DNA of 64,000 bases from contig NZ_CP092183.1 in NCBI RefSeq assembly GCF_023499255.1, positions 7,002,501 through 7,066,500 of the forward strand, read 5' to 3'. The stretch is from Couchioplanes caeruleus. GTDB lineage: Bacteria > Actinomycetota > Actinomycetes > Mycobacteriales > Micromonosporaceae. Within the stretch, counting starts at the first letter, position 1; every line of letters starts with the position of its first letter. The translations under genes were made by a program, and so were the position numbers. This document shows positions 26,081 through 38,937 of the stretch, piece by piece. The notes under the pieces are model-generated. The model saw only the letters and a list, made by a program, of their open reading frames with translations, did no database searches and had not been told where the DNA came from.

Positions 26081-26756
26081 CGGCGATCTTGTAGCCGACG
26101 CCGTACACGGTGAGCAGGCGCACCGGGGTGCCCGGAGCCGGTTCGATCTTGCGGCGCAGGTTGAGCACGTGGACGTCGACCGTGCGTGCCGTCACGTACG
26201 AGTCGAAGCCGTGCAGGTGGCGCAGGAGCTGGTCGCGGGTGAAGACCCGTCCCGGCTGGCCGGCCATCACCTCGAGCAGGCGGAACTCGCCCGGGGTGCA
26301 GCCGACCTGCCGGCCGTCCACGCGCACCTCGTGGCGTACGGGATCGACCTCGAGCCCGCCGACCCGCAGCACCGGCGACGCGGCGACCGGCACCCGCGTG
26401 CGGCGCAGCAGCGTACGGATCCGGGCGGCCAGCTCGCGGGGGCTGTAGGGCTTGGTGAGGTAGTCGTCGGCACCGAGGTCCAGGCCGAGGAGCAGGTCGT
26501 CCTCGCTGCTGCGGGCGGTCAGCATGAGCACCGGCAGCTCCGACTCCCGCCGCAGCACCCGGCACACGTCCAGCCCGTCGACCCGCGGCATCATCACGTC
26601 GAGCACCAGCAGGTCGGGTGGGTTCCGGCGGATCTCGTCGAGGGCCGCGCGACCGTCGCCGACGACGGTCACCGCGTGACCCTCGTGTTCCAGGTAGCGG
26701 CGCAGCAGCTCCGCCTGCTTGGGGTCGTCCTCGGCGACGAGCAGCTTGGCAGTCAC
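26073..26756 (-). CDS. OmpR/PhoB-type response regulator of efflux module 1
   Basis: About 227 residues. The receiver has the acidic pair in LLVAEDD, phospho-acceptor Asp in LLVLDVMMPRVDG, Thr in LMLTARS and Lys in DYLTKPYSPRELAAR. The winged-helix DNA-binding domain includes CTPGEFRLLEVMAGQPGRVF and DVHVLNLRRKIE. The start is GTG 26756, leaderless with TAGACT 7 nt upstream. Overlaps the kinase gene by 8 bp. Confidence 0.93.
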   Translation of the reverse strand: MTAKLLVAEDDPKQAELLRRYLEHEGHAVTVVGDGRAALDEIRRNPPDLLVLDVMMPRVDGLDVCRVLRRESELPVLMLTARSSEDDLLLGLDLGADDYLTKPYSPRELAARIRTLLRRTRVPVAASPVLRVGGLEVDPVRHEVRVDGRQVGCTPGEFRLLEVMAGQPGRVFTRDQLLRHLHGFDSYVTARTVDVHVLNLRRKIEPAPGTPVRLLTVYGVGYKIADG

Positions 26757-26858: not shown

Positions 26859-27431
26859 ATGAATCGCATCCGTCAGACGTCGTTCGTCGCCGCCGCACTG
26901 GTGCTGCTGAGCGCCTGCTCGTCAGGGAGCGCCGATCAGCAGCCGCCGGAGGTGGCGACGTTGGAGAGCGCCCCGGTGACCGCGGCCGCGTCCCGCGCCG
27001 CCGGGACACCGAAGGGCGTTCAGCTGCGCCTCGACATGACCGACGACGAGAAGGCGCGGTTCTGGGACGCGTACGGGGACTGCCTGTTCTCGCACGGCGT
27101 CAAGGAACGGTCGAAGGACAAGGATGCCATGGCACCGGCTGTCGGTACGGGCAAGCGCCTGCTCGACCCCAGCGGCGAGCCGAAGGCCGCGTACGCCGCC
27201 TGCGCCTCGCAGAAGCCGCTGGAACCGGTGGAGACCGACCCGGACCGCAACCCGAACTTCGCGGCGCAGTGGCAGGACAACGTGCGTTGCCTGCGCGACC
27301 ACGGGCTCATGGTGCACGTGACCAAGCCCGGCGAGTGGACGTACGACAGCAGCGACACCCCGGTTCCCGACAACCAGCAGCAGCTCGAGCGGCAGTGCAT
27401 GCTGGAGGCCTTCGGTGCGAAGAAGGACTAG
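26859..27431 (+). CDS. Cys-rich lipoprotein of efflux module 1
   Basis: 190 residues with a lipoprotein signal: MNRIRQ, hydrophobic core, lipobox LLSAC. The mature part contains two copies of a Cys-x2-3-His-Gly...Cys pattern: DCLFSHGV...YAACAS and RCLRDHGLMVH...RQCMLEAFG. The lipoprotein of module 2 (36492-37022) shows the same double arrangement, so this is a shared component of the system. It is probably exposed on the outer face of the membrane beside the adaptor. Function unknown; Cys/His pairs suggest redox or metal/ligand binding. Its 3' end overlaps the adaptor gene by 17 bp. Confidence 0.82.
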   Translation: MNRIRQTSFVAAALVLLSACSSGSADQQPPEVATLESAPVTAAASRAAGTPKGVQLRLDMTDDEKARFWDAYGDCLFSHGVKERSKDKDAMAPAVGTGKRLLDPSGEPKAAYAACASQKPLEPVETDPDRNPNFAAQWQDNVRCLRDHGLMVHVTKPGEWTYDSSDTPVPDNQQQLERQCMLEAFGAKKD

Positions 27432-28470
27432 CCTGCTGGCCGTCGCGCTGGCGATGGCCGGGGCCGGCGCGGGTACGGGCGCGGCCGTGGCGACCCTGCG
27501 CACCGGGCCACCGGCACCGCCGCAGGTGATCACCCCGTCGCTCGCCACGACGACGGTGCAGCGCGGGAACCTCTCCGACAGCAGGCTCGTCCCGGCCACG
27601 CTCGGCTTCGGCACGGCCCGCGAGGTGCGCAGCACCGGCACCGGTGTGCTGACCCGGCTGCCGAGGCCGGGTGCCGCCGTCCACCGCGGCGCCGAGCTGT
27701 TCCGCGTCAACGATCAACCCGTCGTGGTCCTCTACGGCGACACCCCCGTGTTCCGCCCGATCGACCGGGTCGGCATGACCGGCAACGACGTGCTGCAACT
27801 GCGCCGCAATCTGCGCGCGCTGGGCTACCCGAGCCGCGCCGGCAAGGCGGACACGGTCGACCAGCCGATGCTCGACGAGGTCAGGAAGTGGCAGCAGCGG
27901 CTCGGGGTGACGCCTCCCGGCGCGCTGCGACCCGGCCAGGTGGTGGTCGTGCCCGGCCCCGCCCGGGTCAGTGAGGTGCTCGCCGACCTCGGCGCCCCGG
28001 CGGGCGACGTCGTGCTGCGGACGACCGCGAAGTCCAAGGTGGTGACGATTCCCATGAGCGCCGGGGACGCTCGTACGGTCAAGCTCGGGGCCGAAGTGGC
28101 CGTGGTCCTGCCCGACGGCCGCGAGATACCCGGCAAGGTCAGCGCGATCAGCCGGTCGATCGTGTCGGGCGCCGACTCCCCCGACTCGGCCGAGCCGCCC
28201 AAACGCACCGTGACGGTGAAGCTGTCCGCCGGCAAGCGCCTGGCCGCGCTCGACGCCGCGCCCGTGCAGGTCCGCTTCACGACGGCGGCCCGCAAGAACG
28301 TGCTGATGGTCCCGGTCACCACGCTCGTCGCGCTCCGCGAGGGCGGGTACGCCCTGCAACGCCCCGGCGGCGGGCTGCTCGCGGCCAGAACCGGCGTGTT
28401 CGCGGGCGGCATGGTGGAGGTCAGTGGCCCCGGCATCACCGCGGGCCTGACGGTGGTGGACGCCCGATGA
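27415..28470 (+). CDS. peptidoglycan-binding/HlyD-like efflux adaptor, module 1
   Basis: 351 residues. A signal anchor (SLLAVALAMAGAGAGTGAAV) is followed by a membrane-fusion-protein barrel-sandwich domain (GTGVLTRLPRPGAAVHRG; VPMSAGD-like barrel with VKLGAEVAVVLPDGREIPG). A peptidoglycan_binding_1 insert follows VFRPIDRVGMTGNDVLQLRR. These adaptors couple MacB-type transporters to the cell envelope in actinomycetes. GTG 27415 has GGAGG upstream and overlaps the lipoprotein gene; the stop overlaps the ATPase start (ATGA). Confidence 0.88.
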   Translation: MRRRTSLLAVALAMAGAGAGTGAAVATLRTGPPAPPQVITPSLATTTVQRGNLSDSRLVPATLGFGTAREVRSTGTGVLTRLPRPGAAVHRGAELFRVNDQPVVVLYGDTPVFRPIDRVGMTGNDVLQLRRNLRALGYPSRAGKADTVDQPMLDEVRKWQQRLGVTPPGALRPGQVVVVPGPARVSEVLADLGAPAGDVVLRTTAKSKVVTIPMSAGDARTVKLGAEVAVVLPDGREIPGKVSAISRSIVSGADSPDSAEPPKRTVTVKLSAGKRLAALDAAPVQVRFTTAARKNVLMVPVTTLVALREGGYALQRPGGGLLAARTGVFAGGMVEVSGPGITAGLTVVDAR

Positions 28471-29180
28471 CCGAGGTTCTCGCGCTGGAGCGGGTCACCC
28501 GGGAGTACCCGGGCGGGGTGACGGCCCTCGACGACGTCTCCCTGGTCGTGGCCCGCGGCGAGCTGCTGGGGATCGTCGGCCCCTCCGGCTCCGGCAAGTC
28601 GACGCTGCTCAACATCATGGGAACGCTCGACCTGCCGTCGCGTGGCACCGTACGCATCGGCGGCGAGGACGTCACGCGGCTCTCCGACCGCCGCCTGTCG
28701 GACCTGCGCGGCGCGCGGCTCGGCTTCGTCTTCCAGCAGTTCCACCTCGCCGAGGGCACCACCGCCACGGAGAACGTCGCGACCGGACTGCTCTACGCCG
28801 GGGTTCCGCGCCGCAGGCGCCGACGGCTGGCGGAGCAGGCCCTGGAGAGGGTCGGGCTGGGCCACCGCCTGCGGCACCTTCCCCACCAGCTGTCCGGGGG
28901 CGAGAAGCAACGCGTCGCGATCGCCCGTGCCGTGGTCAACGAGCCCGATCTGATCCTCGCCGACGAGCCGACCGGCGCGCTGGACACCGCGACCGGCGAC
29001 TCGGTGCTGAACCTGCTGACCGAGCTGCACGCCGACGGCGCCACCATCGCGGTGATCACCCACGACGCGGACATCGCCGCTCGGCTGCCCCGGCGCGTCA
29101 CCGTACGCGACGGCCGGATCGTCTCCGACCGGTCCGCCGGGGACGAGAAGCGCGCCGGAGGAGGCACCGAATGCGGCTGA
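28467..29180 (+). CDS. ABC transporter ATP-binding protein (MacB-like), module 1
   Basis: 237 residues with Walker [11 protein letters not shown]-loop FVFQQFHL, signature LSGGEKQRV, Walker [13 protein letters not shown] and H-loop ITHD. This is the LolD/MacB subfamily that powers mechanotransmission-type transporters rather than classic channel translocation. Coupled to the adaptor upstream and overlapping the permease gene by 10 bp. Confidence 0.95.
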
Positions 29181-30355
29181 CACCGGTGGATGTCGTGCTC
29201 CTGGGACTGCACGGTCTGCGTACCCGGAAGGCCCGCGCCGCCCTGTCGGCCCTGGGCATCGCCATCGGGATCGCCACGATGGTCGTCGTGACCGGGGTTC
29301 CGGCCTCGAGCGGGCGGGCCCTGGACGCGCGGCTGGCCACGCTCGGCACCAACCTTCTCCGGGTGTACCCGGTGACCGCGGGCGATCAGCCGCAGCCCCT
29401 GCCGGCGGAGTCGATCGGCATGGTCCGCCGGATCGGGCCCGTCGCACAGGTCAGCGCGGTCGCCAACCTGCACACCGTGGCCCGCCGCTCCGACCGTGTC
29501 GACGAGCACGACGCCTCCGGCCTCACCGTGCTGGCCGGCCGTACGGATCTGCTCCCGGCGGTCGGCGCACGGCTGAGCTCGGGGCGCTTCCTGACCGATG
29601 CCACCGCGCGGTTCCCGGTGGCGGTTCTCGGGTGGGAGGCGGGATCCCGGCTCGGCGTCGCGACCGTGCGTCCGGGTGGGCCGTTGCCGCAGATCACCAT
29701 CGGCAACCGCCGGTTCGTCGTCGCCGGGATCCTCGCGCCGGTGCCGCTCGCGCCCGACCTGGACACCTCGGTCGTGGTGGGGTGGGATGTCGCCGAGCGG
29801 GCCCTCGGCTTCGACGGCCACCCCACGGTCCTCTACGTACGCGCGGCCGAGGCGAACCTCGAGGACGTCCGGACGGTGTTGCCGGCCACCGTGAACCCGC
29901 GCCTGCCGGGGATGGTCGACGTCTCCCGGCCCTCGGACGCCCTCGCGGCCAAGCGGGCGACCGCGACGACCTTCGGGTCCCTGGTGCTCGGGCTGGCCGG
30001 CGTGGCGGTGCTGGTGGGAGCGGTCGGAGTGGCCAACACCATGGTCGTCTCGGTGCTGGAGCGACGCCGTGAGATCGGTCTCCGCCGCGCGCTGGGCGCC
30101 CGCCGTGGCCACATCCGCCTCCAGTTCCTGGCCGAGTCGACGGCGCTGTCCGTTCTGGGCGGGGTCGCCGGCACAGCGCTCGGCGCCGGCGCGGTCGTCG
30201 CGTACGCGATGTGGCACTCCTGGCCGGTCTCGATTCCCTCCTGGGTCGCGCCCGCCGGTCTCGGGGGCGCGACGGTCGTGGGAGTCGTCGCCGGCGTCTA
30301 CCCCGCCGTACGCGCGGCCCGGCTGCCGCCCACCGAGGCGCTCGCATCCCCCTGA
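29171..30355 (+). CDS. MacB/FtsX-type ABC permease, module 1
   Basis: 394 residues. An N-terminal helix ([20 protein letters not shown]), a ~200-residue extracytoplasmic MacB_PCD domain ([10 protein letters not shown]... [13 protein letters not shown]), then three helices of the FtsX domain ([48 protein letters not shown]) ending LPPTEALA. It has the topology of MacB/FtsX permeases and likely expels an antibiotic, peptide or envelope compound. Last gene of the operon; its end is 10 bp from the end of rph (convergent). Confidence 0.92.
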
Positions 30356-30365
30356 CGCCGAGAGG

Positions 30366-32960
30366 TCACTGCAGGATCTCCACGTACCCGTCGGTTCCGT
30401 GTACGCGGATCCGCTGGCCGTCGCGGATCAGCCGGGTCGCGTCGGCCACCCCGACCACGGCCGGCAGCCCGTACTCGCGGGCGATCACCGCCCCGTGGGT
30501 CATGAGCCCGCCGACCTCCGTCACCAGGCCGGTGACCGCGACGAACAGCGGTGACCAGCTGGGGTCCGTGTACGCCGTGACCAGGATGTCCCCCGCCTCG
30601 AGGTCGGCCTCCGTCATGTCGAGGATGACCCGGGCCCTGCCCTCGACCGTCCCGCCGGACACCGCGATGCCGAGCAGCGCACCGGCCGGCGCGTCGTCGC
30701 GCCGGTACGACCCCGACAGCGCCTCGCCGTCGGACGTGAGCACCCGGGGCGGCGTGAGCTCCTCGGAAACGCGGAATTCGTCCTTGCGCCGGCGGATGAG
30801 GCGGTTGTCGGCCCGCCCGGTGGACACGGCGTCCCGCAGTTCCTGGAACGTCAGATAGAAGGCGTCTTCCGCCGTGTCGAGCACGCCGGCGTTCACAAGG
30901 CGCTCGGCCTCCGCCATCAAGGCCTGCTTGTAGATGAACAAGCGGCTGATGATGCCGTACTTCGGGTATTCGCGGTAGCCGATGAAAGTCCGGACCCGTT
31001 CGATCATCCGCTCGGTCTCGTCGGCTTTGCGCTCCCCGTCCGGCAGCGCCCGCAAGCGTTCCAGCACCTGCAGCCGCTTCTTCTCCGCTGCCTGCCGGCC
31101 CTGCTCGAACCGCCGTGCGGCGGCGCCGGGCTCGAACAGCTTGATGTTGTCGAGAATCAGGGGTACGAGCGTGGCCGGTCGTTCGCTCCAGCGCGGCCTC
31201 GTGATGTCGATCTCGCCGACGCAGCGCATGCCGTACCGGTCCAGATAGGTCTCGATGGCGTCACGCGCCTCGATTCCGCCGGGGATCGTCGGCAGCTCCT
31301 CGAGAAAACCGTCGTCCTCGACGTGCTGCAGGAATGCGGTCACCTCGGGATGCGGCCGGATCGCGTCCGCGACGTCGAGCAGCGCCAGGCCCATTTCCGA
31401 CGTGATGTTGCCCGGCGCGGACAGGGTGAGCGTGTCGGCCGCGTTCCTCTCGCCCAGCCATTCCTCCAGCCGGTCGTTGAGCCACCAGGTGGCCTCCATT
31501 CCGGCCATGATCGCCTGCATGCTCAGCGGATCGGTCAGGACCCGCTTGTGCTCCGGGATCGCCTCCTCCACGAGGAAATCGAAGAGCGCCGGTCCCGTTC
31601 TCGTGCGGATGTCGTGCCGCAGCGCGGCGATCGACTTCTCGCTGCGTTCGATCAGCTCGTCGACGATGGCGGGATCGCTCTCGATCGGCGCGGGCGAACC
31701 ACCGGCCGGCGGCGCGGCCGGAGCAGCGTCCGGGACGGCCGGGAGGAAGTCGCCCCGGGACAGGAGCGTCTCCAGCGCGTCCCGCATCAGCGGGTCGGAC
31801 CGTCCGGCCAGGTCGAGGAAGGCGGCCCGGCCCGCGGCCGTGGCCAGGCGGCCGGTGGCGTCGACGAAAAGCCGGCCGCCGGCCTCGTGCATCGGTGCCA
31901 TGGCGATCAGCTGCCACAGGGAGATGCCCAGAGGCTTCATCGCGTCGGTCATCATCTGCTGGTGGCCGACGGAGAGATAGACGCGGTTCTCGCTGTCGGC
32001 GGACCTGGGAACGGGGTACAGCGTGGTGATCGGCCGGCTCTGCACGATGTGGAAGTCACCGTCGGCGAGGCACCATTCGATGTCCTGAGGGCGCCCGAGG
32101 CGCGCCTCGATCCGGCGGCCCGCCGCCACGAGCCGCAGGACCTGCTCATCGCTCAACGCGGGCTGGTGCTGTCGTTCGGATTCGACGGCGCGCTCGTGCG
32201 TACCGCCCTCCGGAAGGGCATACACGGCGGTCTTCTTGACGGCGATCGTCCTGGCGATGATCTCGCCGTCACGCACGTGGTAGACGTCGGGATTCACCAG
32301 GCCGGAGACCAGTGCCTCGCCGAGACCGAAGCCGGCGTCCACCGCTGCGACCTTTCGGTTGCCCGTGACCGGGTCGGCCGTGAACAGGATTCCGGCGGCA
32401 TCCGGGAAGACCATCTGCTGCACGACCACGGCCATGTGGACTTTCCGGTGGTCGAAGCCGTTCCGCAGGCGGTAGGTGACGGCCCGCTCGGTGAACAGCG
32501 AGGCCCAGCACCGTACGACGTGCCGGAGGATCGCCGCCGGCCCGATGACATTCAGATACGTGTCCTGCTGGCCCGCGAAGGAGGCCGTCGGCAGATCCTC
32601 GGCCGTCGCGCTGGAACGGACGGCGTACGCGGACTGCTCGCCGAGCCGGGCGACCGCTCCGGTGATCTCCGCCGCCAGGTCGTCCGGCACGTCGACCGTT
32701 TCCAGCGTCCGGCGAAGCTCCGCGCTCACCGTCCGGATCGCGTCCCGGTCATATATCGCCGGCCTGGACAGGCGATCCCACAAGGCGTCGATCGCGGGCA
32801 CCGACGCGAGAATCCGCCGGTACGCATTCGTCGTGACGCAGAAACCGGCCGGCACGCGAATACCGTCGATCCGGGAGAGCTCCCCCAGCTGAGCACCTTT
32901 TCCGCCGACGACCGCGACCTGGTTCCCGTCGACGTCGTTCACATACATCACGTACTGCAC
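30366..32960 (-). CDS. rph: rifampin phosphotransferase
   Basis: 864 residues, matching Rph enzymes (~867). Order of domains: ATP-grasp-like nucleotide-binding domain ([42 protein letters not shown]), central rifamycin-binding domain, and C-terminal swivelling domain with catalytic His822 in [15 protein letters not shown]. The enzyme transfers the beta-phosphate of ATP to the C21 hydroxyl of rifamycins, inactivating them. Start GTG 32960 has a GGGGG ribosome site; GTG 32951 and ATG 32948 are alternatives. A rifamycin-associated element lies about 55 bp upstream, supporting rifamycin-responsive expression. Confidence 0.93.
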
Positions 32961-33015
32961 GCAGTGCCCCCGTAGTCGCAAATGTGGCCTCAGCCGACGA
33001 TTCTCCGCGACGACG

Positions 33016-33034
33016 GGGGCCTTGCCGCAAGCCC
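33016..33034 (-). promoter_or_regulatory. rifamycin-associated element (RAE) upstream of rph
   Basis: On the minus strand the 19 bp read GGGCTTGCGGCAAGGCCCC, an imperfect inverted repeat. From memory this matches the RAE described upstream of rifamycin-inactivating genes in actinomycetes. A TTGCGG within it could serve as -35 with GAGAAT about 19 bp downstream as a weak -10. Confidence 0.75.
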
Positions 33035-33105
33035 ACCGGTCGGATATACGTTGAAGTGGGAGGAAGTCACCCGTAATGAAGCGTCCGGGGTGATCGAATG
33101 TCCGG

Positions 33106-33507
33106 GTGCGAAATGGGATCGCCGGGATCGGCATCGCCGTCCTGTGCCTGCTGGCCGGCTGGGCGCTGCTCTTCGTGCTGGCCCGGCGCCTGCCGCCCGG
33201 CCTGCTCCGGGATCTCGCCGCGTTCATCCCCGACTGCGTGACCACCGTCCGGCGCCTGCGCAAGGATCCGCGCGTGCCGCGCCGGGCGAAGATCGCCATT
33301 GTCCTGGCCGGCGTGTGGGTGGCCAGCCCGATCGACCTGATCCCGGAATTCATCCCGGTCATCGGTCCGCTCGACGACATCGTCGTGGTCGCCCTGGCAT
33401 TGCGGTACGCGGGCCGTCAGGTCCCGCGGGAGGTGCTGATGGCGGCGTGGCCGGGTGAGCCCCGCCTGATCGAACGCCTCCTCGGACCGCGCAGCCCTTC
33501 GAGCTAG
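33106..33507 (+). CDS. DUF1232 (YkvA-type) membrane protein
   Basis: 133 residues. An N-terminal helix (IAGIGIAVLCLLAGWALLFV) is followed by a charged region and the DUF1232 motif VWVASPIDLIPEFIPVIGPL then DDIVVVALALRYAGR, which is the family signature. The function of the family is unknown. GTG 33106 is the likely start. It diverges from rph with the RAE between them, so regulation could be shared. Confidence 0.88.
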   Translation: MRNGIAGIGIAVLCLLAGWALLFVLARRLPPGLLRDLAAFIPDCVTTVRRLRKDPRVPRRAKIAIVLAGVWVASPIDLIPEFIPVIGPLDDIVVVALALRYAGRQVPREVLMAAWPGEPRLIERLLGPRSPSS

Positions 33508-33615: not shown

Positions 33616-34800
33616 TCAGGCCGCGGCCAGCGCCTCCGTCGGGGGGAGGCGGGCCGCCCGCACGGCCGGGTACCAGCCCGCCACCGCGCCGATCAGCACG
33701 GTTGCCCCCACTCCCCCGGCCAGCGCCCACGCCGGCACGACACCCGGCCAGCTCTGCGCCGCGGCGTACGCGAAGGTCACCGCCGTCCCGATGAGCACGC
33801 CCCCCGCGCCGCCGAGCAGGGACAGCAACAGCGATTCGGCGATGAACTGGGCGCGGACCTGGCCGCGCGTCGCGCCCAGCGACCGGCGCAGGCCGATCTC
33901 CGCCCGGCGTTCCAGCACCGAGATCACCATGGTGTTGGCCACGCCGATCCCGCCGACCAGCAACGCCACCGCGCCCAGGCCGAGCAGGAGCTGGGTGAAG
34001 GTCTCGTCCGTGGCCTGCTGCGCCTTGAGCGCGTCGGATGGCCGGGACACCTTCACCTCGTCCGGGTTCTCCGGGTTGGCCGTGGCGGCGAGCACCGACT
34101 GCACCGCGCTCACCTGGGACTCCTTCGATCTGGTGTAGACGGTGGTGGCGTGCCCGTCGAAGCCCGCGTACGCGCGGGCCGCGTCCCAGCCGATGAGCAC
34201 GGCCGAGTCGAGTTCCGGGGCCAGCGGCACCGGCCGGAGCACGCCGATGACGGTGTACCGGCGGCCGCCGATGAGCACCGCCGGCACCGAACCCAGCCGG
34301 CGGACCGCGGTGGCGCCGAGGACCACCGCCGGGTAGCGGCCCGTCGCGGCGTTCAGCCAGGTGCCGGACGCCATCGCGGCGCCGACCGTGGCGGGCAGGT
34401 CGAGCTGGGCCGCGAGGACGGAGATGCCGCCGGTCTGCGCCTTCGGGATCCGGTCGGTGCGGTAGACGGACGTGTCCTCGACGGTGCCGGTCGCGGAGGC
34501 GGCGGTGACCGGGCCGATCCGCTTGATCATCGGTACGGCGTCGTCCGGCAGCGTCGCGTCCGCGCCGAACATCGTGGAGCCGGGGCCGGCGGTCAGCAGG
34601 TTCGTGCCCAGCGCCGCGAGCTCCCGGTCGAGGTCGGCGCGGCTGGACGACGAGATGCCGACCACCGCGGTCATGGCGGCGATGCCGATGGCGATCCCGA
34701 GGGCGGACAGCACCGCGCGCAGCGGGCGGGCACGGATGCCGGAACCGCCGACGCGCATCAGGTCGGCGGGACGCAGCCGGGCCGGGCTGAGCTCGGTCAT
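33616..34800 (-). CDS. MacB/FtsX-type ABC permease, module 2
   Basis: 394 residues, the same length and layout as the module-1 permease: helix in [20 protein letters not shown], extracytoplasmic domain starting GTNLLTAGPGS and ending [12 protein letters not shown], then FtsX helices (LLLGLGAVALLVGGIGVANT; GGAGGVLIGTAVTFAYA; VGATVLIGAVAGWYPAV) ending [10 protein letters not shown]. Clearly paralogous to 29171-30355. Starts 1 bp after the ATPase stop. Confidence 0.92.
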   Translation of the reverse strand: MTELSPARLRPADLMRVGGSGIRARPLRAVLSALGIAIGIAAMTAVVGISSSSRADLDRELAALGTNLLTAGPGSTMFGADATLPDDAVPMIKRIGPVTAASATGTVEDTSVYRTDRIPKAQTGGISVLAAQLDLPATVGAAMASGTWLNAATGRYPAVVLGATAVRRLGSVPAVLIGGRRYTVIGVLRPVPLAPELDSAVLIGWDAARAYAGFDGHATTVYTRSKESQVSAVQSVLAATANPENPDEVKVSRPSDALKAQQATDETFTQLLLGLGAVALLVGGIGVANTMVISVLERRAEIGLRRSLGATRGQVRAQFIAESLLLSLLGGAGGVLIGTAVTFAYAAAQSWPGVVPAWALAGGVGATVLIGAVAGWYPAVRAARLPPTEALAAA

Positions 34801-34801
34801 C

Positions 34802-35461
34802 TCACATCACCCGGCCGTCGCGCATGCGGATCTGCCGGGGCAGGCTGCCCGCCAGGTCCCGGTCGTGCGTGATGACCACGACCGTGGTGCCGCCGGCGTT
34901 GAGCTCGGTCAGGATCTCGACGACCTCCGCACCGGACGCCGAGTCGAGGTTGCCGGTCGGCTCGTCGGCCAGCAGCAGCGCCGGGTCCCCGGCCACCGCG
35001 CGGGCCACCGCGACGCGTTGCCGTTCGCCGCCGGAGAGCTCGTGCGGGCGGTGCCCCAGGCGGGCCGCGAGACCGACCCGGTTCAGCGCGGCGACCGCGC
35101 GCCGCTCCCGCTCCCTTCGGGGTACGCCCGCGTACAGCAGCCCGTCAGCGACGTTGGCGACCGCGGTACGGCCGGGAGCCAGGTGGAACTGCTGGAACAC
35201 GAAGCCGATCCGACGCGCGCGCAGGGCGGACAGTTGCCGGTCCGACAGCCCGGCGACGTCGTGACCGTCGATGCGGACGGTTCCCGCGGACGGGCGGTCG
35301 AGCGTACCGATCAGGTGCAGCATCGTGGACTTCCCGGAGCCGGAGGGGCCGACCACCGCGGTCATCTCGCCGTACCCGATGGAGAGGGTGACCGAGTCGA
35401 GCGCGGTGACCCCGCCGGCGTAGGTCTTCGTCGCGCCGCCGAGCTGGACCACCGCGCTCAT
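34802..35461 (-). CDS. ABC transporter ATP-binding protein (MacB-like), module 2
   Basis: 219 residues: Walker [11 protein letters not shown]-loop [13 protein letters not shown], signature LSGGERQRV, Walker [14 protein letters not shown]-loop ITHD. Same subfamily as the module-1 ATPase. ATG 35461 overlaps the adaptor stop (ATGA). Confidence 0.95.
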
Positions 35462-36495
35462 GACGGCGTTCCCACGGTCGTGCCGTCGGTGATGCCACCG
35501 CCGGAGACCTCGACGCGCCCGTCGGCGAACATGCCGGTGCGCACCGCGACGATCCGACTGGTGTCGCCCTCCACGACCTCCAGCCCGTAGCCGCCCTCGG
35601 CGAGCGCGAGCAGCGCGGCGACCGGCACGGTCAGGACGTCGGCGCGCTTCGCCGCGGTGAAGTCGACCGTGACGGCCGCGTGGTCGAGGGCGCCCGAGCG
35701 GAAGCCGCTGACCGTGACGTCGAAGGTGGTCGTGTCCTTCTGCTGCCCCTCGCCGGGCGTCACGACCGTCTCGACGTCGGTGATCGTGCCCTTGACGCGC
35801 TTGCCGTCGGGCAGCGTGACGGTGACCGCGGCGCCCTTGCGCGCCAGCCGCGCGTCGGAGGCCTCGAGCGGGACCGTGGCGACCCGTCCCGTGCCGGTGG
35901 TGCTGAGCAGCGCGGCCCCGGGCTGCACCACGTCGCCGGGCGCGGCCTGGCGGGAATCGACGCGGACCTTGCCGGCGGCGTAGACGATCCGGGGCGGGTC
36001 GACCCTGCCGGTCTCCGGAACCCCGAGGTCGTCCTGCCAGTCACGGACCGCGTCCGCGGTGGCCGACGTGTACGACTTGTCGACGGTGAACCCCCGATAT
36101 CCGAGCGCCCACAGGTTGGCCTCGAACTGCTTCACGTCTCTGCCCTCGTCGCCCGGGGACAGCGTGCGGTACGCGGGCAGCGTCCCGTACAGCAGCACGA
36201 CCGGGTCGTTGTCGATGCGGTAGAGCGCCCGTCCCCGGCTGACCGTCGAGCCGGACGCCGCCAGGGCGGTGACCGTGCCGGACAGGCGTGCCTTGCGCTG
36301 GGTGGCGTCGCCGTACCCGAGTTCGCCGTCCACCGACTGGGTGTCGACGAACGTCTGCTTCGTCACGCGCGCGGTGCCCGGCGGCAGGGTTCTCGCCTGA
36401 GCCGGGTCTTCAGCGCCCGAGGGCAGCCCGGCCGCCACGAGGGCCGCGGCACCGACGGCGGCCACCGCGCCGCCGATGAGGTAGCGGCCCCTCAT
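35458..36495 (-). CDS. peptidoglycan-binding/HlyD-like efflux adaptor, module 2
   Basis: 345 residues. Signal anchor [19 protein letters not shown], barrel-sandwich half ([18 protein letters not shown]), peptidoglycan_binding_1 insert ([20 protein letters not shown]), second half ([20 protein letters not shown]) and beta barrel ([18 protein letters not shown]). Paralogous to the module-1 adaptor (27415-28470). ATG 36495 overlaps the lipoprotein stop (ATGA). Confidence 0.88.
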
Positions 36496-37022
36496 GAGCC
36501 CGCCTCGCGGGAGAAGCCGGGGCCGTACTGCTGGCACGCCTCCATGGCCTTGTCGAACGTCGGGTCGCCGGGTCCCTTGCCGCCCAACATCCGGATGTTG
36601 CCGTCGGGGTTGGGGTCGGGGAAGTCCTTGACGCCGTGGTCCCGCATGCACTGGGCCATCTGCCGCGCCTTCTCCAGCTCCTCGGGGTTCAGCTTGCGCG
36701 GCTCGCCGCCGTTCGGGGCGTACTTCTTGCAGGCCTCCATGGCCTTCTGAAGCTTCGACTGGTCCGTGCCCTTGGGGATCGACAAACGCATCCCGTGCCC
36801 GACCGGCTCCGGATCGGGGAACCACGTCAGCCCCTGCTCGCGCATGCACTTCGAGAACTTGAGCGCGGCGTCGGCCTCCTTGCCGGCCGCCGCGGCGCTG
36901 CTGGAGGGCGTCGCCGTACCGCCGGCCGAGGCGACCCCGCCGCCGTCGTCCTTCGCCTTGCCGCACCCGCCGACCGCCAGCGTGAGCAGCAGGCCGAGCG
37001 CGAGAACCGTCCTGGTCCGCAT
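36492..37022 (-). CDS. Cys-rich lipoprotein with an internal duplication, module 2
   Basis: 176 residues with lipobox LAVGGC. The mature part is two ~65-residue copies: KCMREQGLTWFPDPEP...AMEACKKYAPNG and QCMRDHGVKDFPDPNP...AMEACQQYGPG. Each copy has two Cys and a FPDP motif. The same C-x-R-x-x-G...C arrangement, more diverged, is seen in the module-1 lipoprotein. First gene of the module-2 operon, divergent from its two-component genes. Function unknown. Confidence 0.85.
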   Translation of the reverse strand: MRTRTVLALGLLLTLAVGGCGKAKDDGGGVASAGGTATPSSSAAAAGKEADAALKFSKCMREQGLTWFPDPEPVGHGMRLSIPKGTDQSKLQKAMEACKKYAPNGGEPRKLNPEELEKARQMAQCMRDHGVKDFPDPNPDGNIRMLGGKGPGDPTFDKAMEACQQYGPGFSREAGS

Positions 37023-37147
37023 CGCGTGTCTCCGTCCCGGCGGCCGGGCGGCCGCCCCGGCGCCGAGTGAAGACCGCCGGGCGTTTCCCCGCCGTCAGCG
37101 AAAACGGTGACGCCCACGTGACGCGATCACCGGTCACCATGGGAGGC

Positions 37148-37804
37148 ATGCGGATCCTGGTGGTCGAGGACGAGCGCCTGCTCGCCGACGCGGTCGCGGA
37201 CGGCCTGCGCCACGACGCCCACGCGGTCGACGTGGTGTACGACGGTGCCGCCGCGCTGGAACGGGCCGCGGTCAACGGCTACGACGTGCTGGTCCTGGAC
37301 CGGGACCTGCCCGTCGTGCACGGCGACGACGTGTGCCGGGAGCTGGCGGGCCGCGACGGCAGCCTGCGCATCCTCATGCTGACCGCGGCGTCCGACGTGG
37401 ACGATCGGGTCGACGGGCTGGCCCTGGGCGCGGACGACTACCTCGTCAAGCCGTTCGCCTTCCGGGAGCTGGCGGCCCGGGTCGCCGCGCTGGGCCGGCG
37501 CTCCCGCCCGGCCACCCCGCCCGTGCTGAGACGAGCGGGGATCAGCCTGGACCCGTACCGGCGCGAGGTCTACCGGGACGGTCGCTAGGTGCCGTTGTCC
37601 CGCAAGGAGTTCGCCGTCCTCGCCGAGCTGCTGCGGGCCGACGGCACCGCGGTGTCCGCCGAGCATCTGCTGGAGAAGGCGTGGGACGAGAACGCCGACC
37701 CGTTCACCCACGCGGTCCGCATGACGATCCTGAAGCTGCGCCGGAAGCTGGGCGATCCGCCGGTGCTGCTCACCGAGCCGGGAGTGGGGTACCGCATCGG
37801 ATGA
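37148..37804 (+). pseudogene. OmpR/PhoB-type response regulator of module 2, split by an in-frame TAG
   Basis: Residues 1-146 are an intact receiver (MRILVVEDER, phospho-acceptor Asp in VLVLDRDLPVVHG, Thr in LMLTAAS, Lys in DYLVKPFAFRELAAR) plus the start of the DNA-binding domain (DPYRREVYRDGR). TAG at 37586-37588 follows. In the same frame the rest of the winged helix continues at once (VPLSRKEFAVLAELLRADG ... RMTILKLRRKLG) to 37804. Either this is a nonsense mutation, or a sequencing error, or GTG 37589, adjacent to the stop, reinitiates to make a separate 71-residue DNA-binding peptide. The start is ATG 37148; ATG 37139 is an in-frame alternative. The stop overlaps the kinase start (ATGA). 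Confidence 0.85.
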
Positions 37805-38937
37805 GGCTCAAGCTCACGATCCGCGGCCGGCTGACCCTCGTTTACGGCGGCCTGTTCCTGCTCGCCGGCCTGGTGATGCTCGGCGTGACGTACGTTCTCG
37901 TGTCCCGGCAGCTCCCGACCGGGATAGCCGTGAAGGCGACGTCGGTCGACGTGGCGCGCAGCCGGGTGCTCGACGGTTCGCAGCCGGACGTGGTGTTCCG
38001 CAGGGCCGTGGAGATCACCCGGGACGACGCTCTCTCGGCGTTGCTCACCCAGGGCGGCATCGCCCTGCTCGTGGTCGGCGCGGCCGCGGTGGCCCTGGGC
38101 TGGCTGGTGGCCGGGCGGATGCTGCAGCCGCTGCATCAGATCACCGACACGGCCCGGCGCATCGCCGAGGCGCCGGCCGCCGACCGCGGGTTGCACGAAC
38201 GGATCGCGTTGAAGGGCCCGGACGACGAGATGAAGCGGCTGGCGGACACGTTCGACGTGATGCTGGCGCGCCTCGACCGGTCCTTCGACGGGCAGCGGCG
38301 GTTCATCGCGAACGCCTCGCACGAGCTGCGTACGCCGCTGACGCTGAACCGGACGCTGCTCGAGGTTGCGCTGGAGAAGGACGCCTCGCCGGAGGTGACC
38401 CAGCTCGGTACGACGCTGCTCGCCATCAACCAGCGGCACGGGCGGCTGATCGACGGCCTGCTGCTGCTCGCCCGGTCGGAGCGTGAGCTGACCGAGCGCT
38501 CGTACGTCGACCTGGCCGACATCGCCGAGCACGCCGCCGGCGACGACGTGAAGACGGAGCTGGCCGAGGCCGCCACCCTGGGCGACCCGGTGCTGCTGGA
38601 ACGCCTCGTGCAGAACCTGCTGGACAACGCGGCCCGGCACAACCTCAGCTCCGGCGGCTGGGTACGGGTCAGCACCGGCACCCACAACGGCTGGGCCACG
38701 CTGCAGGTCACCAACAGCGGACCGGTCGTGCCGCGGTACGAGGCCGCGTCCCTCTTCGAACCGTTCCGGCGGCTCACCGGCACCGACCGGGTCGCCGGCT
38801 CCGGCGGCGCCGGCCTCGGCCTGTCGATCGTGCGGGCGGTGGCCCGGGCGCACGGCGGCGACGTGCACCTCGAGCCGCGCGACGAGGGCGGCCTCGTCGT
38901 GACCGTCGGCCTGCCCGCGGCTCAGGCCTGGTCGTAA
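37801..38937 (+). CDS. sensor histidine kinase of efflux module 2
   Basis: 378 residues. Two membrane helices (residues ~12-34 and ~82-104) flank a short ~50-residue extracytoplasmic loop, followed by HAMP, HisKA with His174 in ANASHELRTPLTLN, and HATPase_c (NLLDNAARHN; GGAGLGLSIVRAVARAHGG). Much shorter sensor region than the module-1 kinase, so the two respond to different signals or through different partners. Its regulator is interrupted upstream. Confidence 0.92.
   Translation: MRLKLTIRGRLTLVYGGLFLLAGLVMLGVTYVLVSRQLPTGIAVKATSVDVARSRVLDGSQPDVVFRRAVEITRDDALSALLTQGGIALLVVGAAAVALGWLVAGRMLQPLHQITDTARRIAEAPAADRGLHERIALKGPDDEMKRLADTFDVMLARLDRSFDGQRRFIANASHELRTPLTLNRTLLEVALEKDASPEVTQLGTTLLAINQRHGRLIDGLLLLARSERELTERSYVDLADIAEHAAGDDVKTELAEAATLGDPVLLERLVQNLLDNAARHNLSSGGWVRVSTGTHNGWATLQVTNSGPVVPRYEAASLFEPFRRLTGTDRVAGSGGAGLGLSIVRAVARAHGGDVHLEPRDEGGLVVTVGLPAAQAWS

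Follow-up and report, generated by a model that had tools for sequence, protein, structure and literature searches.

An in-frame TAG codon in the gene for an OmpR/PhoB-type response regulator, located beside an export module, raises the question of whether the regulator has been truncated in this genome, whether the stop is bypassed during translation, or whether it is an error in the sequence. The window, the 64-kb stretch of DNA analyzed here, spans positions 7,002,501-7,066,500 of a single-contig genome of 8,421,026 bases (8.42 Mb). Direct reading showed that the regulator frame (37148..37804, forward strand) comprises 218 codons in one frame, from an ATG at 37148 to a final TGA at 37802-37804, and that codon 147 is TAG (37586-37588, forward strand), followed directly by GTG (37589-37591). 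The upstream piece (37148..37585, forward strand; 146 codons) encodes the whole receiver domain and the linker as well as the initial strands of the DNA-binding domain, and matched Response_reg (PF00072) over residues 3-112 with an E value of 4.9e-25. The downstream piece (37589..37804, forward strand; 71 codons from GTG and then TGA), in the same frame, encodes the winged helix-turn-helix part and matched Trans_reg_C (PF00486) over profile positions 5-77 of 77 with an E value of 2.9e-17; both Pfam matches were above the curated cut-offs. The phospho-acceptor Asp and its partner residues are present in the receiver domain. The residues E7, D8, D51, T79, and K101, which are named for VanR of Streptomyces coelicolor in its structural report (PMC8329863), were invariant in the orthologue alignment, and none differs between the window and its sister genome. 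Both flanks of the TAG are otherwise intact, and every other codon of the regulator is open and conserved. In addition, the intact protein P0002 of Nucisporomicrobium flavum aligned with residues 1-218 of the window genome (96% identity, E value of 1.6e-132) with the single TAG within the alignment. Because P0002 aligned end to end across the TAG, the two pieces are one split gene and not a chance juxtaposition. The direct reading, the Pfam matches, and the P0002 alignment confirmed the original prediction that an in-frame TAG splits an OmpR-type regulator whose halves are otherwise intact. The N-terminal beta-sheet and the winged helix-turn-helix are both encoded, with the strands of the sheet parted from the helices by the TAG, and the receiver and the DNA-binding domain do not share one open frame in the window genome.

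Codon 147 was then compared across related genomes. The genus group consisted of 67 genomes, including the window's own, of Actinoplanes in the broad sense, which are soil bacteria. An orthologue-level match (E value of 3.1e-67 or better) was found in 44 of them, own genome included, and was absent from 23, of which 19 had no match at an E value of 1e-55 and 4 had weaker matches only; thus, absence of the regulator seems to be tolerated. By the same count (23/67), the regulator-kinase pair is often missing in this genus. Codons were read in 30 of the 44 genomes, including the window genome, and all 29 other orthologues had the 218-aa frame with Tyr at codon 147 (27 TAC and 2 TAT). No internal stop was present in the 43 other genus genomes with an orthologue-level match, 14 of which lie beyond the codon-level set. 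In a family-wide search in which 10 candidates were scored per genome, P0002 had a match at an E value of 1e-90 in 177 of 300 genomes, and among the 150 matches listed, the only one with an internal stop was that of the window genome. A TAG at the same place was found in none of the 29 codon-level orthologues, and a stop of any kind in none of the 149 other matches listed. The protein nearest to the upstream piece (protein search, best 120 of 6403) was P0001, an intact 218-aa protein with 97% identity. The TAG is therefore private to the window genome within the genomes searched, at the strain or species level. The nearest sister genome, G022, has the same gene arrangement and an intact module, with a kinase 96% identical to that of the window and a regulator 96% identical to the upstream piece and 99% (98.6%) identical to the downstream piece. 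Its regulator is 100% identical to P0002 over 218 aa and has a Tyr codon where the window has TAG.

These comparisons also bear on the ancestral codon. Homologues had been expected to carry one residue between the two flanks, and the 29 congeneric orthologues do have exactly one. The proposal that this residue was Gln, Glu, or Lys was not supported, as it is Tyr in all 29. Outside the genus, codon 147 was read by eye in 11 named relatives (L009-L019), which had Tyr in four cases, Pro in three, Glu in two, and Asp and Gln in one each; Glu and Gln were thus seen only in more distant relatives among those read. The results point to a recent nonsense allele, Tyr147 to TAG, private to the strain or species and with loss of function, which we consider the probable explanation.

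A nonsense mutation and a sequencing or culture error are both ordinary events, and error is the main rival of this reading. The TAG could have arisen by a sequencing or assembly error, or by mutation of the sequenced subculture, with the regulator of the organism intact. Its occurrence in just one of the 150 family-wide matches, in a gene with all other codons open and conserved, agrees with such an origin. Nevertheless, the genome forms a single contig with an estimated completeness of 100% and contamination of 1.5%, and the TAG is a substitution whose adjoining base runs are never longer than three. The assembly is also not obviously full of such breaks. In a codon-usage screen of 464 kb (the window and 20 stretches of 20 kb), 18 candidate split frames were obtained, with the studied TAG included and ranked first. 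Eight of the 17 others were read by eye, and none looked like an interrupted gene; they resembled one gene ending and a second one following, or were weak candidates. Considering this evidence, an error is unlikely. Three other receiver-domain matches with a stop inside were also noted in the same genome, but these look like short stand-alone receivers in which the alignment overran the protein's own end.

Next, we examined the position of the stop within the protein fold. An AlphaFold2 model of P0002 (mean pLDDT, 86.6; pTM, 0.55) placed strands at residues 127-129, 132-135, and 140-143, followed by a short strand (146-147) and then the first helix (152-163). The best solved relative of P0002 by sequence was full-length VanR of S. 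coelicolor (PDB 7lz9 and 7lza; E value of 6.5e-74, residues 1-217, gap-free). It was also first in the fold search with 57% identity and a TM-score of 0.54 over the whole chain, a value explained by the two domains sitting differently. The gap-free alignment placed window residue 137 on VanR Phe137, and the beta6-beta7 turn around Phe137 is part of the DNA-binding domain in the VanR crystal structure (PMC8329863). Both the model and this structure place the TAG inside the DNA-binding domain, in the model past three N-terminal strands. Codons 127-146 (37526..37585, forward strand), which encode these strands in the AlphaFold2 model, are cut from the helices. A stop in the interdomain linker was rejected on the P0002 model and on the VanR structure paper (PMC8329863). 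The suggestion that the TAG could yield a stand-alone receiver and a stand-alone DNA-binding peptide was not supported by the same evidence, because the break falls within the DNA-binding domain; a peptide starting from GTG 37589 would be an incomplete domain lacking residues 127-146. VanR belongs to the same OmpR/PhoB family, and its kinship with the regulator is in sequence and fold only. The regulator studied here differs from VanR in that it is split by a TAG and neighbors a MacB-type ABC exporter, and we claim no link to glycopeptide resistance; a Pfam scan of the module proteins found no van resistance enzyme among them.

The possibility that TAG is decoded as an amino acid was assessed from the tRNAs, the release factor, and stop codon usage. 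At the 51 places that the Rfam tRNA model detected and ARAGORN read, no CTA, TTA, or TCA anticodon of a suppressor tRNA was present, tRNAs missed by the Rfam model being invisible to this survey. The release factor 1 gene prfA was detected above its curated cut-off. The stops of 334 coding-like open reading frames in the 464-kb sample, classed by a simple codon-usage score, were TGA in 243, TAG in 76, and TAA in 15. Genome-wide recoding of TAG was rejected because no suppressor tRNA turned up at these 51 places, the genome has release factor 1, and TAG is an ordinary stop. Of the marks of a recoded or read-through codon, namely, a stop shared with relatives, a suppressor tRNA with a CUA anticodon, and loss of release factor 1, none was seen in the relatives and tRNA places covered or in the release factor search, and the case does not point to new decoding biology.

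To evaluate the age of the TAG, substitutions on its two sides were counted. Compared with G022, the upstream piece showed 15 synonymous and 8 nonsynonymous differences, and the downstream piece showed 5 synonymous differences and 1 nonsynonymous difference in 71 codons. When polarized with three outgroups, the changes in the downstream piece on the window branch were 1 nonsynonymous and 3 synonymous. The neutral expectation for this piece since the split from the sister was 5 to 12 nonsynonymous changes, and the probability of one or fewer if unselected ranged from 0.04 to 0.0001 with the choice of dS. With so few downstream changes, either the TAG arose after the divergence from the sister or the sequence beyond it has stayed in use. 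The stop lies within a conserved domain and is absent from orthologues, as in a nonsense pseudogene; the relaxed selection expected after such a stop was not seen, and the downstream piece is without decay. This conservation fits a young lesion, but it is also expected under functional readthrough or reinitiation and to that extent counts against a loss of function. The selection data fit a young lesion and continued use alike and do not separate them.

Readthrough at a low level by a near-cognate tRNA would give some full-length regulator, so that the gene would be down-tuned and not dead. The single nonsynonymous difference against five synonymous ones downstream of the TAG favors this interpretation, which draws on the argument of Belinky et al. 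(PMC7918605) that in-frame stops whose dN/dS is less than 1 occur widely among bacteria and are mostly short-lived. The genes described there likewise carry a single stop in an otherwise conserved and open gene, with a conserved downstream part. In contrast to the orthologous stops across species that underlie that study (PMC7918605), the stop described here occurs in one genome only and is common to no relative seen. Moreover, no suppressor tRNA was found, the genome has release factor 1 and uses TAG as an ordinary terminator, and a lesion postdating the divergence from the sister would leave equal conservation. Leaky readthrough is therefore considered very unlikely.

The adjacency of TAG and GTG had led to the proposal of termination-reinitiation, in which ribosomes would restart at GTG 37589 and produce a separate winged-helix peptide beside the receiver. 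Such a restart would also keep kinase translation coupled. The Shine-Dalgarno-like duplex before this GTG had an energy of -7.4 kcal/mol, which ranks among the strongest 6% when set against 3000 random positions in the window and is close to that of the kinase start (-6.8). Duplex energy is nevertheless a weak predictor of starts, because the regulator's own ATG scored only -3.0, about the median. Two predicted database proteins of 71 aa, P0136 and P0157, begin at the same Val, which also favors a start there; their contigs measure 251 and 263 kb, and they may be split regulators or gene-calling artefacts. On the other hand, the codon after 147 is a native Val codon in the 29 orthologues (GTG in 19, GTT in 6, and GTC in 4), and an internal start is thus not conserved. 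The peptide would also lack the three modeled strands at residues 127-146. When it was folded alone without an alignment, the model was poor (mean pLDDT, 56), which is weak evidence as single-sequence models are often poor. Reinitiation is mechanically possible, with no sign of selection for it. As the explanation of this locus, it is highly improbable. A young functional split, in which a stand-alone phospho-receiver is accompanied by small amounts of DNA-binding product from either reinitiation or leaky readthrough, is likewise a distinctly improbable reading; if true, the exporter would now be under low constitutive or stochastic control instead of a phosphorylation switch.

Under the preferred reading of a young nonsense allele, the consequences would extend to the neighboring genes. 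The regulator is followed by an open sensor histidine kinase gene (37801..38937, forward strand; HAMP, HisKA, and HATPase_c), whose ATG overlaps the TGA of the regulator as ATGA in all 30 genus rows. Divergent to the regulator, on the reverse strand, are a gene for a small probable lipoprotein (36492..37022), an efflux adaptor with PG_binding_1 and HlyD_3 (35458..36495), an ABC ATPase (34802..35461), and an FtsX/MacB_PCD permease (33616..34800), the last three assigned by Pfam and by comparison with relatives. The lipoprotein assignment derives from the N-terminus; the Pfam scan of this protein gave no match, and its gene had a tblastn match in all five relatives compared. The FtsX/MacB_PCD permease, ABC ATPase, and HlyD-type adaptor are encoded together, as in MacB-type ABC export modules, and in all five relatives compared, tblastn recovered the module genes in this arrangement. 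None of the kinase, lipoprotein, adaptor, ATPase, and permease genes of the window contains an internal stop. Translation of the regulator would end once the receiver and the initial DNA-binding-domain strands had been made. The resulting 146-aa piece may remain a substrate of the kinase but would be unable to bind DNA, and the divergent lipoprotein-adaptor-ATPase-permease operon would no longer be switched by the pair, with its candidate operator intact. Given the ATGA overlap, the early stop may also lower translation of the kinase. The loss of control over this module, foreseen in the original prediction, would be the natural consequence of the split if the TAG is real. The allele would then be either a recently formed pseudogene or a polymorphism within the culture that was sequenced. 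A real TAG would mean that the control line of an exporter has recently been cut in one species while the exporter, the sensor, and the candidate operator are intact, giving a small natural knock-out that is useful for asking what role a conserved two-component pair has in the genus. In the literature searched, we found no paper on a split regulator of this kind in Actinoplanes.

The candidate operator is a TGAC-N7-TGAC direct repeat with an 11-bp period (37108..37122, forward strand) between the divergent operons. An 11-bp direct-repeat spacing is that used by OmpR-type dimers. All 30 genus rows carried the repeat at -39/-40 relative to the start of the regulator, compared with 1 of 6000 mononucleotide-shuffled rows, and the surrounding intergenic DNA is otherwise variable. 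The 30 rows share descent, and the 64-kb window contains one match with 1.67 expected by chance; since the window count is not above chance and the rows share descent, the argument for an operator is the conservation of the repeat. The repeat is a likely operator for this two-component pair. No Rfam family reached the gathering score in a search over 36900-38000. Another adaptor-ATPase-permease set, paralogous to that of the studied module, was observed at 27415-30355 and 26310-26747, with a further response regulator (L006) nearby; compared with the sister's copy of the studied module, its ATPase is 63% and its permease 51% identical. Between the two modules is a 1004-aa open reading frame (30366-33380), a putative relative of PEP synthase or rifampin phosphotransferase.
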